From Ktedonobacteria bacterium (GTDB lineage: Bacteria > Chloroflexota > Ktedonobacteria > Ktedonobacterales > JACDGC01), in assembly GCA_027459705.1 (NCBI GenBank), contig DAIDHM010000181.1, forward strand, positions 1 to 37,898: a DNA stretch of 37,898 bases, written 5' to 3'. Each line of letters opens with the position of its first letter. Within the stretch, counting starts at the first letter, position 1. The notes beneath the pieces were generated by a model. The model was not told where the DNA came from. It made no database searches and saw only the letters and a program-made list of their open reading frames with translations. This document shows, one piece after another, positions 16,207 through 28,392 of the stretch. Both the position numbers and the translations under genes were made by a program.

Positions 16207-16728
16207 TCAGCCTTTCGGCAACGCTGCCTCGACCGCTTGCGCCCCGGTCAGCGCGATGAGATCAGCCACGCGCAACTGCAGGTCCACCCCGCGCTGGCCG
16301 CCACTCACCAGGATCTCCTCGTGGTCCAACGCGCGTTTGTCGATATAGACGACAAACCGACGGTTGAGCAACGCCAGCGCAGAGATGCCCCCGACCCGCA
16401 ATCCCGTCAGCTGTTCAGCCTGGTCATGGGTCGCCATGCGCGCTCTGCGTGTGCCGATGGCGCGGGCGAAGGCGCGCAGGTCCAGTTCCTGGTCGGCCGG
16501 GAGCATGACGAGCAACGGAACCGCGCTATCGGTTGGGAACGGACCATCCGCCTGGCCGGATGCTTCACGCAACACCACCAGGGTCTTATAGACCTGCGCG
16601 GGTGGGTATCCGATACTCGCCGCGACCTGGACGGCATCGCGGATCGTCTCCGGAAACGTATGGACCTGGAAAGGGATCTTGCGAGCGGCGAGCACGCGCA
16701 TCGCCTGCGTTCGCGGCGCTTTGGTCAT
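16207..16728 (-). CDS. ybaK: YbaK/EbsC-type Cys-tRNA(Pro) deacylase
   Basis: YbaK proteins hydrolyse cysteine wrongly attached to tRNA-Pro, protecting translation. The 173-aa protein shows the family features: MRVLAARKIPF, VYKTLVVL with the key Lys (K48), LPADQELDLRAFARAIG, LTGLRVGGISALAL and VDLQLRVADLIALTGA. A loop at residues 58-65 (GQADGPFP), just before VPLLVMLPAD, is encoded by a copy of the dispersed palindromic repeat (16535-16552). The start overlaps the stop of the Rieske gene (ATGA, 16725-16728), so translation is coupled. The cluster order is SDR, Rieske oxygenase, ybaK, mpg, without evident metabolic logic. Confidence 0.92.
   Translation of the reverse strand: MTKAPRTQAMRVLAARKIPFQVHTFPETIRDAVQVAASIGYPPAQVYKTLVVLREASGQADGPFPTDSAVPLLVMLPADQELDLRAFARAIGTRRARMATHDQAEQLTGLRVGGISALALLNRRFVVYIDKRALDHEEILVSGGQRGVDLQLRVADLIALTGAQAVEAALPKG
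16535..16552 (+). repeat. Dispersed palindromic repeat, copy in ybaK
   Basis: GGGAACGGACCATCCGCC, differing by one base from the GGGAGCGGACCATCCGCC found at three other places. The gene reads it on the opposite strand as ADGPFP. Confidence 0.65.
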
Positions 16729-18994: not shown

Positions 18995-20386
18995 ATGTGG
19001 GAATATATCGGGTTTCCTTTTGCGCAGACGGACCCCAGCGATCAGCTCGAAGCTGCAGGTGCACAGGAGTCCGAACGGAGACTGCAGGCAATCTCTGCGC
19101 AATTGAATCAGCTTGTTCGTGCGCCAGATGCTGAAACTCTGCATGGACTCATTGAAGGATTACAACAATTGGAGCGTGAGAGCGTGAGTGGGGCGAGTGG
19201 GAGCGGACCATCCGCCAGCCTCACCCCACGACAGGAAGTGCGACGGTGCTGTCTCCTGGCGATGGTGTACGACCAGCTGGACATGCACGATTGGGCCAGT
19301 CGCTCCGCGGCGCATTGCGTCGAGCGCATCGAGTCAGCCGATGCGCTAACGACGAGCAGCGAGAAACTCCGTGTGCACCTCTATCGCGCGCATCTGGCGC
19401 TCAAGCGCGATCAGCGTCGCAACGCGATCGGGAGCTATGATCGCATCATCGCTCTGCTCATCGCTGAGGGGATCGCTGGCACCATCTTTACAGATGGTGA
19501 TCCACTCTGGTTGCTGGGTTATGCGTATCTTGAGTCGGCGAAAGCCTGGGCAGTGTTAGATGAAGAAGAGCAATCATCGCGTGACGCGCGCGATGCAGTT
19601 GGAGTTCTTCGGCAATGGGTCATTGATCGCCATATGATGACGCAGCAACAACAACTCCACCTGCAGGATGATCAATTCGTGGCGTCTTTTGCCACAATAC
19701 TCAGCAACCAGCAGTTCGTACCCACAACGGATCAGGATATTGACTACATCCGTTTGCTCGTGGATTATCAGCGCTTGCTGGTATTTTATCTCCTCTGGCA
19801 ATACAAACTCCAGCGCCAGACCCTGACTGTGCCATTGGCGATGAGCTGTATGGCGGCGCTGGAACTCGCGATTAGATTGGGTGAGCACTATGATGATCGC
19901 GAACATCAACTACAGAACTATCTGTTAGCCGTGGAAGTTGTCCTGGTATTTCATGAGCGTTTGGAAGATGCACGTAATTGGCTTGCCGATGCGCAGCAGT
20001 ATTTAACCACAATCAAAACGACAAAAATCGGTGGACCTGATGCTGAAGCCTCGATGCCTTCTTTAGTCTGGCTCGCTTTGTATGAAAATCGCGTACAATG
20101 GTACATCGACACAGACTCCGACTATGCCCGCTTATATGGGCCAGTGAAAAGCCTCGCCCACCAAGCGACAAGTCAGGACAAATTACACCTGGCTGGTTGT
20201 TATTATGCGTTGCTCGCCCATGCGCAGTTTCAGGAGGCGCTTGTGAGGCCCGTGGCGGATGCGCAGCAGCAGATCGCAACACACATCCAGCTCGCTCTGT
20301 ATTGTTTTGAGATAACTGATCGCCGTCATGCACTCTACAGCCAGCATACTCGCCGGCAGGCAGAGATCTATAAGGGGTATGCGTAG
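18995..20386 (+). CDS. Helical-repeat (TPR-like) protein of unknown function, first of a pair
   Basis: I do not recognise this 463-aa protein as a named family. It is soluble, largely helical, and has TPR-like helical hairpins, for example RCCLLAMVYDQLDMHDWASRSAAHCVERI (about 86-114) and RVHLYRAHLALKRDQRRNAIGSYDRIIALL. There is no signal peptide or membrane helix. The start is ATG 18995 (MWEYIGFPFA) with AAGGAGG upstream; the frame is open further up but through the promoter. Residues about 66-73 (ASGSGPSA) come from a copy of the dispersed palindromic repeat and lie in a linker before the first helical repeat. It is followed after 6 bp by a paralog. Role as a scaffold or regulator is only a guess. 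Confidence 0.8.
   Translation: MWEYIGFPFAQTDPSDQLEAAGAQESERRLQAISAQLNQLVRAPDAETLHGLIEGLQQLERESVSGASGSGPSASLTPRQEVRRCCLLAMVYDQLDMHDWASRSAAHCVERIESADALTTSSEKLRVHLYRAHLALKRDQRRNAIGSYDRIIALLIAEGIAGTIFTDGDPLWLLGYAYLESAKAWAVLDEEEQSSRDARDAVGVLRQWVIDRHMMTQQQQLHLQDDQFVASFATILSNQQFVPTTDQDIDYIRLLVDYQRLLVFYLLWQYKLQRQTLTVPLAMSCMAALELAIRLGEHYDDREHQLQNYLLAVEVVLVFHERLEDARNWLADAQQYLTTIKTTKIGGPDAEASMPSLVWLALYENRVQWYIDTDSDYARLYGPVKSLAHQATSQDKLHLAGCYYALLAHAQFQEALVRPVADAQQQIATHIQLALYCFEITDRRHALYSQHTRRQAEIYKGYA
19197..19216 (+). repeat. Dispersed palindromic repeat, copy in the first helical-repeat gene
   Basis: GTGGGAGCGGACCATCCGCC, identical to the copies at 21774 and 22602. Read here as SGSGPSA, a different frame from polA. 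Confidence 0.75.
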
Positions 20387-21742: not shown

Positions 21743-22405
21743 TCAATCGTAGCGGTCCGCGCCAGCGCCACCTGTGGGAGCGGACCATCCGCCTTCCGCA
21801 CGGCCCCAGCGCCAGCGCGACTCAGCCAGATCCTCTGGCGTATTGACGTTGTGGAAAGATCGCAGATCTGGATCAACCTCGCGGACCGTAGCGGCAGTGA
21901 CGTACCGCGTGTGGACCTGATCATACCAGGCGGTCATCTGCAGTTGCCCGGCAGCCAGTTGCCGCTGGATGGCCGCGAGGCACGTACCCCGATAGAGCGC
22001 GACGACCGATTGAGGGCGATCGGCGGCATCCAGCGGCACGATCGCATCCAGCGTGGGATCGCGCTCGGCAATCTCCGCGAGCAAATGGAGCAAGGCGGGC
22101 CGTACGCCAGGCAGGTCGCACGCCAGCAAGAAGGCGCCAGGTGTCGTGAGCGCCGCCAGCCCCGCGGCCAGTCCCGCCAGCGGCCCGGCGCCTAGCTGAT
22201 CGCCAACACATTGCAGGCCGAGCCAGTGATAGGCTGTCGGTGTATTCGTGCTGAGGATGAGCGGATCAGCCACCTGGCGTGCCGCCGCCACGACCAGCTC
22301 GATCAGCGTCGGACCCGCGGGCGCCAGCCGCAGGAGCGCCTTATTTGTCCCCATGCGACGACTCTGGCCACCGGCCAGAATGATGGCGCCCATAGTGGTA
22401 CGCAT
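21743..22405 (-). CDS. mobA: Molybdenum cofactor guanylyltransferase
   Basis: MobA transfers GMP from GTP to molybdopterin, making the guanine dinucleotide form of the molybdenum cofactor. The nucleotide-binding signature AIILAGGQSRRMGTNKALL is at the N-terminus, and GDQLGAGPLAGLAAGL and the metal-binding FLLACDLPGVRP follow. DIVPLD-like (DAIVPLDAADRPQSVVALYR) and the final SFHNVNTPEDLA are also typical. The conserved protein ends there; the last ~20 residues (RWGRAEGGWSAPTGGAG) are an extra tail, part of it encoded by the dispersed palindromic repeat. ATG 22405 follows AGGAGG by 6 bases. It is convergent with the second helical-repeat gene (stops adjacent at 21742/21743) and divergent from polA. 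No molybdoenzyme gene is present. Confidence 0.94.
   Translation of the reverse strand: MRTTMGAIILAGGQSRRMGTNKALLRLAPAGPTLIELVVAAARQVADPLILSTNTPTAYHWLGLQCVGDQLGAGPLAGLAAGLAALTTPGAFLLACDLPGVRPALLHLLAEIAERDPTLDAIVPLDAADRPQSVVALYRGTCLAAIQRQLAAGQLQMTAWYDQVHTRYVTAATVREVDPDLRSFHNVNTPEDLAESRWRWGRAEGGWSAPTGGAGADRYD
21774..21793 (+). repeat. Dispersed palindromic repeat, copy in the 3' end of mobA
   Basis: GTGGGAGCGGACCATCCGCC followed by TTC, identical over 23 bp to the copy at 22602 in polA. mobA reads the complement, giving GGWSAPT in its C-terminal tail. Confidence 0.75.
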
Positions 22406-22568: not shown

Positions 22569-25520
22569 ATGGCCGCCGCCGACCTGGTACCGGACGTTCC
22601 GGTGGGAGCGGACCATCCGCCTTCTGCCGCGCCGACCTTGCTGCTCATTGACGGGCACGCCTTGATACATCGCGCGTTCCATGCTCTGCCGGAGGACCTG
22701 ACGACCAAGTCTGGTGAAGTGATCAATGCGACCTACGGCTTCGCCTTGATGCTGATGAAAGCCATCGAAGACGTCCATCCAGACTACCTCGCCGTCACCT
22801 TTGACCGACCCACACCAACCTTCCGCCACGCGGCGTTCACCCCTTATAAAGCCCACCGCCCAACCCTCCCTGACCACTTGCGCCCGCAGTTCGGCCGCGT
22901 CCGCCAACTGGTGGAGTCGTTCCATATCCCCATCTATGAACTGGATGGCTTCGAGGCGGATGATGTGCTGGGGACGCTGGCGAAACAAGCCGAAGCCGCA
23001 GGCGCGCGGACGATTATCCTGACGGGTGATATGGACACTTTGCAACTCGTCACCGCCGCCACCAGCGTCATGACCGCGCGCCGTGGAGTGAGTGATATTC
23101 TCGTCTTCGATCCCGCGGCGGTCGTCGCCCGCTATGGCGTCGGACCGGACCGCGTGCCGGACTGGAAAGCGCTGACCGGCGACACTTCGGACAATATCCC
23201 CGGCGTTCCGGGCATCGGCGAGAAGACCGCGACGAAACTCCTGCAGACCTATGGCAAACTGGAAGACGTCCTGGCGCATGTGGCGGAACTCCCGGCGCGT
23301 CAGCGTCAGTTGTTGACGGATTTTGCCGACCAGGCACGCCAGAGCAAATGGCTGGCGACGATCGTCACGGATGTCCCCGTCACCTTGCGGTTGGATGATG
23401 CACACACGATGGATTTTGACCGCGCCGTGACGCGTCAGTTTTTCCGTGAGATGGAGTTCAATAGTCTGATCGATCGGTTGGAACGCCTCGGTCGCACAGT
23501 GACCACGGCGATGCCGACTGATGCGCCATCGGGGGTCGCCACCGACTCCCCCGTCACCACCCCGCTTGCCACATTGCCGGGAGTTCCGCCACATGCGTCA
23601 GCGGAGACCGGCCCGGCGCAGATGGCCCTCTTCGCGCTCCCCGCCATCGAGGATGCATCGCCCTCCGATGCGCCAGCCGTGGCGGTGCCACTGGCGACAC
23701 GGACGATCGTCGTGACGGATGCCGCCACCCTCCAGGTCCTGGCCACGAGTATGCGCCATGCCGATCTCGTGGCGTTCGATGTCGAGACGGACTCGACGGA
23801 TGATCTGCATGCCCATCTGGTCGGCATCTCGCTGGCGCTCGGGGCGGGCGAGGCCTTCTATATCCCCGTCGGTCATCGCGCCACGCCTACTGGCGAGGAA
23901 CCCGGCCCCCAACTCTCGTTGGATCAGGTGCGGACGATGCTGGGTCCGCCATTGGCAGACCCCACCGTGCGCATGGTCGGCCATAATGCCAAGTATGACA
24001 TGAATGTGCTGCACGCCCATGGCATCGACGTGCAGGGAGTCGTCTTCGATACGATGGTCGCGGCCTATCTGATTGATCCAGGGCGACGGGGGTTGGGCTT
24101 GAAAGAGCAAGCCTTCGAGGTACTGGGGATCGTGATGACCCCGATCGTGGAGTTGATTGGCCGCGGCGCGAAGCAGATCACCATGGCCCAGGTCCCCATC
24201 CATACGGCCGCCGCGTACGCCAGCGCCGATGCGGATATGACCTGGCGCCTCGCGGCACCATTAGAGGCAAAAGTACGCGAAGCCGGACTCTGGGATCTGT
24301 TCCAACGGCTGGAGATGCCGCTTATCCCCGTCCTGGCGCGCATGGAACGGGTCGGCATTTTGGTCGATCTGGCGGTCCTGGAGCGCATGTCGGTCGATCT
24401 CGCCGAACAGGTGGCGGCATTAGAGCAAGCGATTTATCAGGCAGTCGGCCATGAGTTCAATATCAATTCGAATAAACAACTGGCGGAGGTGCTCTTCACC
24501 GAGTTGCATTTGCCTGCTGGCCGCAAGCTCAAGACGGGCTATTCCGTGGACGCTGATACGCTGGAGGGGTTGCGTGGCGCGCATCCCGCGCTGGACAATC
24601 TGCTGGAGTATCGGACGTTGATGAAACTGCGCAGTACCTATGTCGAAGGACTCCGCGCATTGCGCGATCCGCGCGATGGCCGCGTCCATACGTCGTTCAA
24701 CCAGACCATCGCCAGCAGCGGGCGACTCAGTTCCTCCAATCCAAATCTGCAGAATATCCCCATCCGGACCGAGCTGGGCCGCAGCATCCGCCGCGCGTTC
24801 ATTGCCGCGCCCGGCCACCAACTGGTCGCCGCCGACTATGCACAGGTGGAACTGCGCATTCTGGCGCACATGACGCGCGAACCCGCCCTGGTGGAGGCGT
24901 TCGCGGCCGATGAGGACATCCACCGCGTCACGGCCAGTCGCCTCTATCACGTGCCGCCGGAGGCGATCACCAAAGATCAGCGCCGCATGGCCAAGACCAT
25001 CACCTATGCCATCATCTATGGCCAATCGCCTTTCGGCCTGGCGCGGACCGCGGGGATGCCGCAGGATGAGGCGCGCCACTTCATTCAAACCTTCGAGGAG
25101 AGCTTCCCGCAAGTCAAGGAATATGTGCGCGCGACGATGCAACAGGCCCGGCAACAGGGGTATGTGCAGACGCTGCTTGGCCGCAAACGCTTCTTCCCTG
25201 GTCTCCTCAACCTCCCGCTGGCGCAGCGCCAGGCCGCGGAGCGCGAGGCGATCAATATGCCCATTCAGGGAACGAATGCCGATATCATTAAACTCGCGAT
25301 GATCTCGTTCGATGCGGCAATCCGCGATCTGAACCTGCGGACGCGCCTGATCTTGCAGGTGCACGACGAGCTTGTCTGCGAGGTGCCTGATGACGAAATC
25401 GAACTGGTGATCAGCCTCATGCGCGCCCATATGGAGGGCGCGCTGGAACTGAGCGTCCCGCTCCGCGTGGAGATCAAGGCGGGGCGGGACTGGTATTCGA
25501 CCGAAGCGGTGGATGGCTAG
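22569..25520 (+). CDS. polA: DNA polymerase I with 5' nuclease and proofreading domains
   Basis: Pol I fills gaps in repair and removes RNA primers. The 983-aa protein has the 5' nuclease domain (LLLIDGHALIHRAFHAL, GFEADDVLGTLA, GDTSDNIPGVPGIGEKTA). A 3'-5' exonuclease follows with all motifs: FDVETDS, GHNAKYDMNVL and YASADADM, so proofreading should work. The polymerase domain has motif A DYAQVELRILAH (D756), motif B RRMAKTITYAIIYG (K809, Y813, Y817) and motif C VHDE (D933, E934). The E. coli F762 position is Tyr (Y813). About 23 residues precede the usual start, including VGADHPPSA encoded by a copy of the dispersed repeat. A linker at about 310-370 is Pro/Ala-rich. GAAAGGA precedes ATG 22569. 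Confidence 0.98.
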   Translation: MAAADLVPDVPVGADHPPSAAPTLLLIDGHALIHRAFHALPEDLTTKSGEVINATYGFALMLMKAIEDVHPDYLAVTFDRPTPTFRHAAFTPYKAHRPTLPDHLRPQFGRVRQLVESFHIPIYELDGFEADDVLGTLAKQAEAAGARTIILTGDMDTLQLVTAATSVMTARRGVSDILVFDPAAVVARYGVGPDRVPDWKALTGDTSDNIPGVPGIGEKTATKLLQTYGKLEDVLAHVAELPARQRQLLTDFADQARQSKWLATIVTDVPVTLRLDDAHTMDFDRAVTRQFFREMEFNSLIDRLERLGRTVTTAMPTDAPSGVATDSPVTTPLATLPGVPPHASAETGPAQMALFALPAIEDASPSDAPAVAVPLATRTIVVTDAATLQVLATSMRHADLVAFDVETDSTDDLHAHLVGISLALGAGEAFYIPVGHRATPTGEEPGPQLSLDQVRTMLGPPLADPTVRMVGHNAKYDMNVLHAHGIDVQGVVFDTMVAAYLIDPGRRGLGLKEQAFEVLGIVMTPIVELIGRGAKQITMAQVPIHTAAAYASADADMTWRLAAPLEAKVREAGLWDLFQRLEMPLIPVLARMERVGILVDLAVLERMSVDLAEQVAALEQAIYQAVGHEFNINSNKQLAEVLFTELHLPAGRKLKTGYSVDADTLEGLRGAHPALDNLLEYRTLMKLRSTYVEGLRALRDPRDGRVHTSFNQTIASSGRLSSSNPNLQNIPIRTELGRSIRRAFIAAPGHQLVAADYAQVELRILAHMTREPALVEAFAADEDIHRVTASRLYHVPPEAITKDQRRMAKTITYAIIYGQSPFGLARTAGMPQDEARHFIQTFEESFPQVKEYVRATMQQARQQGYVQTLLGRKRFFPGLLNLPLAQRQAAEREAINMPIQGTNADIIKLAMISFDAAIRDLNLRTRLILQVHDELVCEVPDDEIELVISLMRAHMEGALELSVPLRVEIKAGRDWYSTEAVDG
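22602..22621 (+). repeat. Dispersed palindromic repeat, copy in the polA N-terminal extension
   Basis: GTGGGAGCGGACCATCCGCC followed by TTC. Read as VGADHPP, upstream of the conserved polymerase I start. Confidence 0.75.
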
Positions 25521-26838: not shown

Positions 26839-28251
26839 TCATGGGACGATCGCAATCAAGCCATTGCTGGGCTGCACTCCCGCGCTTAAGGCGAATAGTC
26901 CGCTCCCAGTCGTGAGTTCGAAATGATCAGCGCTGACTGTCTGGGCTTGCCAGAGATGCGCGGGAACCAGCGCCGCACCCGAAGCATTGCTGGCTGGCAG
27001 TGCATCAAAGATCAGGGATCCCGTGCTCTCCCAGGTGGGCGCGATATTGCGCGGCTGGCCAGTCAATGCGGGACTGGCGACGGTCACCACTGTCCCGGTC
27101 GCGAGCGTGATGCATTGCACGGCACTGACGAGCTGACCGGCCAACGCGTTGGCCGTGCTGTCACCAGCATTCAGACGCGCGACAAACGCTATCTGCTGGC
27201 CGTCGGGCGACCATTGAGCGGACCAGCCGTGCCCACCATCGACCTGCGCCACTTCGCGCCTCTGGCTCCCGTCTGGCGCGGCGAGCCAGAGACCGGCCGG
27301 ACGGTAGGGAACCGTCGAATCAACGAGCGCGGTATAGGCCAGGGTCTGGCCATCTGGCGACCAGGCAAACAGTCCGATCGTAGCGGCGGCGGACCAGAGG
27401 GGTCGTGGATTGCTGCCATCGGTCCCCAACGCCCAGACTGTGCTCCCCTGGCCCACCCCCAGCGTCGTGGAGATGAGGAGTCCCGTGCCGCTGGGGTTGG
27501 CGATGGCATCGATCACCGTGGCGTTGACGCCCGCCGGGTCTGGTATGGACTGGTGCGCGCCGGTGGCAGCATCCACAATCCAGAGGCCCGGCGTCCAGGC
27601 GCCAGTGACAGGACCCTGAGGCAGGAAGGCGCGGAACAAAAAGTGTTCGCCATCCGGGAGCCAGTGCAGAAATGTTCCCAGGGCATCGGGTGGCACCACG
27701 CGCAGATTGGCGGATGGTCCGGCAGTGTCGAGAATCCAGAGAATATCTCCATGGTCGCGTTCCCCATCGATCGCCAGATAGGCGCCGCCAGGGGAAAGAG
27801 CAACGGTGGCGATGGCGTCGGTCGCGTCCTGGCCAAAGTTATCGGGTAGCAAGGCCAGCGGAATGCTAGCGCCGTTGACATCGGAAGCCATCAGGCGGAA
27901 GCCCTCGGCGCGATGTTCGACGAAATAGACCCGCCCATGCGGCAGATCCGCATGCATGGTGGTTGGCGCAAAGACCGGCGCCGGCAAGGCCTGGCTGATG
28001 GGTAACGTCGGTGACACGGAGGCCAACTGCCAGAGCCAGCCCAGCCCTGGCACCAGGACCAACAATGCCGCTAACGCGACCCAGAGGCGGATGGTCCGCT
28101 CCCAGCGGATGGGCCGCTCCCAGCGGATGGTCCGCCCCCAGCGGATGGTCCGCCCCCTCTGGCGCCGCGGCACAGGGGCGCCGCCCTTCCGGCTGAGCCC
28201 ACGATGTGGTCTTTCTGCCGTCTGCTCCCAATTTCGCCGGTTGCCTCGCAT
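26839..28251 (-). CDS. Membrane-anchored WD40/TolB-like beta-propeller protein
   Basis: A 470-aa protein. A basic cytosolic segment (1-56) is followed by one transmembrane helix (about 57-77, [21 protein letters not shown]) and an extracellular beta-propeller. Propeller blades are marked by [36 protein letters not shown] and [14 protein letters not shown], as in TolB/PD40-type repeats. Such propellers bind proteins or ligands; no enzyme site is visible. Residues 33-56 are four copies of a 6-residue repeat (RTIRW type) encoded by tandem copies of the palindromic repeat. The start is ATG 28251, with AGGAGGG 9 bases upstream; the frame is open for 51 more codons. It overlaps the M23 peptidase frame by ATGA, so they form an operon. 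Confidence 0.88.
28087..28158 (+). repeat. Tandem array of four 18-bp palindromic units
   Basis: Four back-to-back copies of GCGGATGGTCCGCTCCCA (units at 28087, 28105, 28123, 28141; variants GGGCCGCTCCCA and GTCCGCCCCCA). Each contains the GCGGA-TGG-TCCGC palindrome of the dispersed repeat. Because 18 is a multiple of 3, the propeller gene reads them as a 6-residue peptide repeat. Confidence 0.9.
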
Positions 28252-28392
28252 CGCCTTGCCCTCCTGTTCGATCCGTGCGCGAAATCTTGTGCATGGATCC
28301 CTCTTGTGTGAATCGGCAAGACTGTACAAGACTTGAGGGGTGGTGGAATCATGGTAAAGGTGGCAGCCTGGCAGGCCAAATAGTCCCGACTT

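Follow-up and report, generated by a model that had tools for sequence, protein, structure and literature searches.

The DNA analysed here, hereafter the window, is a stretch of 37,898 nucleotides from the genome of a Ktedonobacteria bacterium. On its minus strand, positions 26839-28251 encode a 470-aa membrane-anchored beta-propeller protein with PD40 repeats (Pfam PF07676), whose start is placed by the Shine-Dalgarno sequence AGGAGG at 28260-28265 on the same strand, 8-9 nt ahead of the ATG at 28251. The gene is divergent from uvrA, and an M23 peptidase gene lies downstream. Within its 5′ part, positions 28087-28158 comprise four 18-bp units arranged head-to-tail, recognized both with TRF and by reading the sequence. 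TRF delimits the repeat at 28087-28157, with a period of 18, 3.9 copies, a 94% match and a score of 121, against 47 for the second-best tandem array of the window. On the plus strand, unit 1 (28087-28104, GCGGATGGTCCGC-TCCCA) has a perfect 5-bp stem and a TGG loop, unit 2 (28105-28122, GCGGATGGGCCGC-TCCCA) has a stem with one A.G mismatch, and the palindrome is exact again in unit 3 (28123-28140, GCGGATGGTCCGC-CCCCA) and unit 4 (28141-28158, GCGGATGGTCCGC-CCCCT). The initial annotation, which described four palindromic units, was therefore essentially correct in coordinates and peptide but not in taking the palindrome GCGGA-TGG-TCCGC as intact throughout, since it is exact in three of the four and unit 2 is the exception.

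Given the Shine-Dalgarno sequence and the ATG at 28251, the array is translated, from the minus strand, as residues 34-57 of 470. As first described, it forms an RTIRW-type hexapeptide array that adjoins a predicted transmembrane segment (28024-28080, minus strand), called by reading the sequence and following straight after the array, and the unit length keeps the frame, 18 bp being a multiple of three. Two further traces of the unit are found in the same gene, both on the plus strand: a degenerate unit near the C-terminus of the protein, read in another frame as GSGLFA (26891-26908), and, with low confidence, a 13-bp core lacking the spacer, GCGGATGGTCCGG (27710-27722). A search of the window with the 13-mer core, at most two mismatches being allowed, gives 14 matches compared with 3.1 expected, a number reached by none of 100 shuffles.

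The home genome is a GC-rich draft of 4.6 Mb and the single representative of its genus in the comparison; its census combines pattern searches with a 0.49-Mb sample, for which one contig in four was taken as far as C160, and with additional targeted stretches. A loose 13-mer scan gave 45 matches but also 30 in a reversed-text control, and an 18-bp definition with a Markov control was therefore adopted. With up to three mismatches, the 18-mer has 186 matches genome-wide against nine for the reversed control, while the core is present in 42 exact copies (one for its reversed control) and a sister version of it, CCGGATGGTCCGG, in 78 (one in the control). The 0.49-Mb sample, not picked for copies, contains 33 of them, compared with 0-3 in Markov-4 sequences, which extrapolates to about 300 copies per genome. 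A two-unit tandem pattern matches 41 times in the home genome and not once in 399 other genomes of the phylum. Relatives hold 0-4 copies of each core, five genomes of the same family having 0 or 1, and the 14 matches to a 19-mer among GTDB contigs, with one unit per locus, are close to chance. No array was found in the viral contigs, plasmids and phages searched.

When singletons are aligned, conservation spans positions -1 to 18 and none is seen beyond. The 18-bp unit consists of a 5-bp stem, a 3-nt loop and a 5-nt spacer, with the consensus [GC]CGGA for the first stem arm, NRG for the loop, TCCG[CG] for the second arm and T[CG]CC[AG] for the spacer, and it falls into a 7-bp module L ([GC]CGGANG) and an 11-bp module R (GTCCG[CG]TNCC[AG]). 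Because it is free of stop codons in all six frames and its length is divisible by three, its insertions preserve the reading frame. The spacing between same-strand copies is 18 bp in 46 pairs and each other value is seen in three pairs at most, and ten opposite-strand pairs within 120 bp are scattered. The earlier proposal that the repeat can multiply locally is supported genome-wide, where a slightly looser pattern recovers 42 direct tandem pairs at exactly 18 bp, by far the commonest same-strand spacing, in arrays of 2-5 units. The halves also multiply separately, the 7-bp GCGGATG and the 11-bp GTCCGCTCCCA both being found as runs, and they can form nested structures such as CCGGATG-GCGGATG-GCGGATG//GTCCGCTCCCA-GTCCGCTCCCG-GTCCGGTGCCA. 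In the 12 nested L-L-R-R cores of the genome, the inner pair matches in all 12 and the outer pair in 10; the outer and inner ends are of unlike type in five of them, three of which match, so that with five informative cores the nesting of L and R halves is suggestive only.

It is the hairpin, that is, the base pairing between L and R, that is kept in this family, and not the encoded peptide. Covariation was assessed with the two bases of a given stem pair free to vary and all other positions of the unit kept constant. Of 104 cases, 89 have a Watson-Crick combination at stem pair 1, almost always G-C (46) or C-G (40), and three have C.C or G.G, whereas the maximum reached in 10,000 shuffles is 61; stem pair 5 is A-T in 89 cases and G-C in 13. 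As pairing is tighter within a unit (86 versus 3) than between a unit and its neighbour (33 versus 9), the conserved object is the single-unit hairpin. Template switching at replication homogenizes hairpin arms and yields double changes without selection on function, so the covariation is no proof of an RNA function (PMC8794818). The process resembles what is found here in that paired arms are formed or kept by double changes, but alone it gives no account of the dispersal of an 18-bp unit.

Genes were called with our own simple codon model, and the counts of frames and terminal positions are accordingly approximate; some N-terminal copies may sit in 5′-UTRs, and the model trimmed the propeller start past the array, which thus lies outside the 59 independent intragenic loci counted. 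The 33 copies of the 0.49-Mb sample are split between spacers (16, against a non-coding fraction of 18%, p=5e-5) and the inside of called genes (17). Within proteins, 22 of the 59 loci lie no more than 25 aa from an end (14% expected, p=3e-5). Copies occur on both strands and chiefly in four frames (a1 16, a2 16, s0 12, s1 12, a0 2 and s2 1), the peptide readings being GADHPL (16), GSGPSA (16), PADGPL (12), GWSAPS (12), RTIRWE (2) and RMVRSQ (1), so that the RTIRW frame of the propeller array is among the two rarest. Four other copies of the window, all on the minus strand, are read as GADHPP in DNA polymerase I, where the unit lies in an N-terminal extension missing from orthologues (22603-22620), GWSAPT in a MobA-like NTP transferase, within its C-terminal tail (21775-21792), GSGPSA in a 482-aa protein with no Pfam match (19198-19215) and ADGPFP in an aminoacyl-tRNA editing domain protein (16534-16551). 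The DNA polymerase I gene itself occupies 22569-25520. Elsewhere, domain maps place copies in the linker of a pyruvate-dehydrogenase-type E2 acyltransferase, at the C-termini of NuoJ and a glycosyltransferase, in the tail of a TetR-type regulator and at the N-termini of an export protein and a T2SSF protein. The C-terminal tail of one TetR-type regulator (L023 4646-5536, contig C233) is made mostly of units, with nine copies in several frames.

Comparison with related proteins indicates that such copies have been added. A 633-residue protein aligned with a 54%-identical relative shows a gap of exactly six residues at the unit, which at the protein level leaves no room for a target-site duplication. 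This is the one clean single-unit boundary, the remaining cases being larger or messier: the N-terminus of PolA that holds the unit is longer than in orthologues, the tRNA editing protein exceeds its orthologue by nine residues at this point, and Hsp90 has a low-complexity insertion of about 56 extra residues with one unit within. MITEs are characterized by a target-site duplication and by terminal inverted repeats around a longer body. As for the propeller protein, its clear orthologues belong to several other genera, and some of them share uvrA and/or the M23 gene as neighbours. In all of them a short, basic N-terminus precedes the membrane segment and none has the RTIRW repeat, so that the array is a lineage-specific addition.

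Taken together, these observations favour, with a probability of roughly 0.8, a reading in which the array represents one of the loci of a dispersed, modular (7+11 bp) hairpin repeat that is specific to this lineage, has multiplied locally and is tolerated in proteins. The 5′ part of the propeller gene would have acquired one unit once the lineage had separated from its relatives, and tandem multiplication would have followed, most likely through replication slippage helped by the hairpin, while template switching between the stem arms could keep them complementary; slippage and template switching as the engine, like the neutrality of the peptide, are what we infer from the pattern of copies. 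Insertions would persist at sites that can take extra residues without damage. Membrane anchors ordinarily accept basic residues on their cytoplasmic face, in keeping with the positive-inside rule. The RTIRW frame is probably tolerated in the propeller protein in this way, its basic stretch placing positive charge on the side of an N-in anchor that is predicted to be cytoplasmic.

The family provides a clear natural case in which a DNA-level repeat adds small in-frame segments to many proteins of one lineage, including DNA polymerase I, Hsp90, the linker of a pyruvate-dehydrogenase-type E2, NuoJ and a tRNA editing protein. Selection on protein, selection on RNA or DNA structure and copying can be separated here, because the unit has a length divisible by three, contains no stop codon in the six frames and is conserved as a hairpin. 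It also carries a warning, namely that the DNA should be checked before a function is assigned to a repetitive peptide.

The unit could instead be a non-autonomous element of the REP/REPIN type, whose single-strand hairpin would be recognized in trans by a Y1 (IS200/RAYT-like) transposase inserting single units, with tandems formed later. REPs and REPINs are, like the unit, short lineage-specific palindromes in many copies, some of them in coding regions including that of DNA polymerase I (PMC3733652, PMC3116915). In other bacteria, DNA polymerase I and Uvr genes are among the REP-tagged genes (PMC3733652), and 5-bp stems are known, as in Thauera GTAG-1 (PMC3733652, PMC3116915). The sharp unit ends and the exact 18-bp insertion of a short, many-copy hairpin would fit such an origin, and eight Y1_Tnp matches, two of them full length, are present in the genome. 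However, REPINs sit beside their RAYT (PMC3116915), whereas the flanks of about 1.5 kb around each of the eight Y1 matches hold no unit core, and the GTAG/CGTC tag is missing from the unit ends in the singleton logo. Moreover, REPs are mostly intergenic and their dimers mainly inverted, while about half of the 18-bp units are intragenic (17/33) and direct pairs prevail over opposite-strand pairs (46 versus 10). On all these points membership in the REP (GTAG/CGTC) superfamilies was rejected, and a transposase-driven origin of this type is possible but unlikely. The genome yielded a single RVT_1 reverse transcriptase gene (G000:C232:36721-37371, L134), and its flanks contain no unit core either.

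Other known repeat systems resemble the dispersed hairpin repeat in part. CRISPRs are regular arrays with unique spacers; here the units abut at 18 bp or lie dispersed, and this class was rejected. In cyanobacteria, the small dispersed repeats (SDR) and the tandem heptanucleotides (STRR), reportedly described by Elhai et al. in 2008, are very small, dispersed and apparently mobile, as is the unit, whose 7-bp module is also found in tandem, but they appear to differ from it in sequence, and the host is another. Rickettsia palindromic elements (RPE) are inserted in frame in unrelated protein genes, as found here, but measure about 100-150 bp (review PMC10969869), whereas the unit is 18 bp long, its conservation stops there and it forms tandem and nested arrays, so that assignment to the RPE fails on element length. 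The family is best described as a coding-tolerant palindromic repeat, RPE- or SDR-like in its working, and is filed neither as REP nor as RPE because defining features of both are lacking despite this likeness. We regard as rather doubtful the proposal that it represents a minimal modular mobile repeat of one lineage, in which 7-bp and 11-bp half-units would be copied and combined into tandem (LR)n and nested LnRn hairpins by hairpin-guided copying, with genes and spacers as landing sites and no REP-type transposase.

Each unit could also be a functional DNA or RNA motif, such as a binding site or an RNA hairpin acting on expression or chromosome organization. The stem covariation and the enrichment in spacers are consistent with this, as is one copy located directly upstream of the Shine-Dalgarno sequence of a valyl-tRNA synthetase gene. 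Yet about half of the copies are intragenic and in either orientation, the motif is absent from all relatives searched, the fold of the propeller array on the mRNA (minus) strand is ordinary, being no better than that of shuffled sequence (z -0.58), and Rfam recognizes two tRNAs in the window and nothing at the unit, all of which makes such a function quite improbable.

The initial annotation had further suggested a role of the basic, Trp-containing hexapeptides at the membrane surface, that is, a selected protein repeat. It is true that the repeat is in frame and adjoins the transmembrane segment, and that the N-terminal part of a sortase gene has a similar reading, SWYRTIRIR. Such a role is nevertheless unsupported and very improbable, since orthologues lack the array, the RTIRW-type frame accounts for two of the 59 independent loci and four further frames are used to read the unit DNA in unrelated proteins. 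The absence from orthologues equally speaks against a plain protein repeat, for which a constant copy number and conserved amino acids across relatives had been put forward, and a conserved protein repeat was rejected on this ground. PARCEL elements are, like the array, tandem palindromic repeats within coding sequence, of variable copy number, but they encode 25-residue domains with conserved hydrophobic residues (PMC2996958), whereas the 18-bp unit specifies six residues in several frames with no single peptide conserved; they were rejected by unit length and frame independence.

Chance, base composition or an assembly artefact, which the GC-rich genome and the ending of contigs C14, C29, C146 and C214 in arrays might have suggested, can practically be dismissed, as controls are near zero, about 9.7 kb separate the array from the closer end of its contig and the units are not identical to one another. 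Contigs C14 and C29 both start in the 18-bp repeat and their ends overlap; copies of it also stand at the start or end of C146, C214 and C125. Arrays thus probably break the assembly and, with several contigs ending in them, long arrays may be under-assembled.

Other repeated words, for example GGACGCACTCCACAAGCCGCACTAC and AACGGCAGGGCATGGCCAAC, occur in the home-genome sample about five times per ~0.5 Mb. A relative of the same family (G004; e.g. L138, L139 and L151) has its own, unrelated palindromic dispersed repeats, and four of its stretches that hold them have no Rfam match. The 18-bp core of one of them, GACAGACAGGAATGTCTGTC, is present 86 times in 1.5 Mb, and the 14-bp core of another, GGGCGGTTGAAACCGCGCC, 81 times. 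Every lineage seems to possess palindromic repeats of its own.
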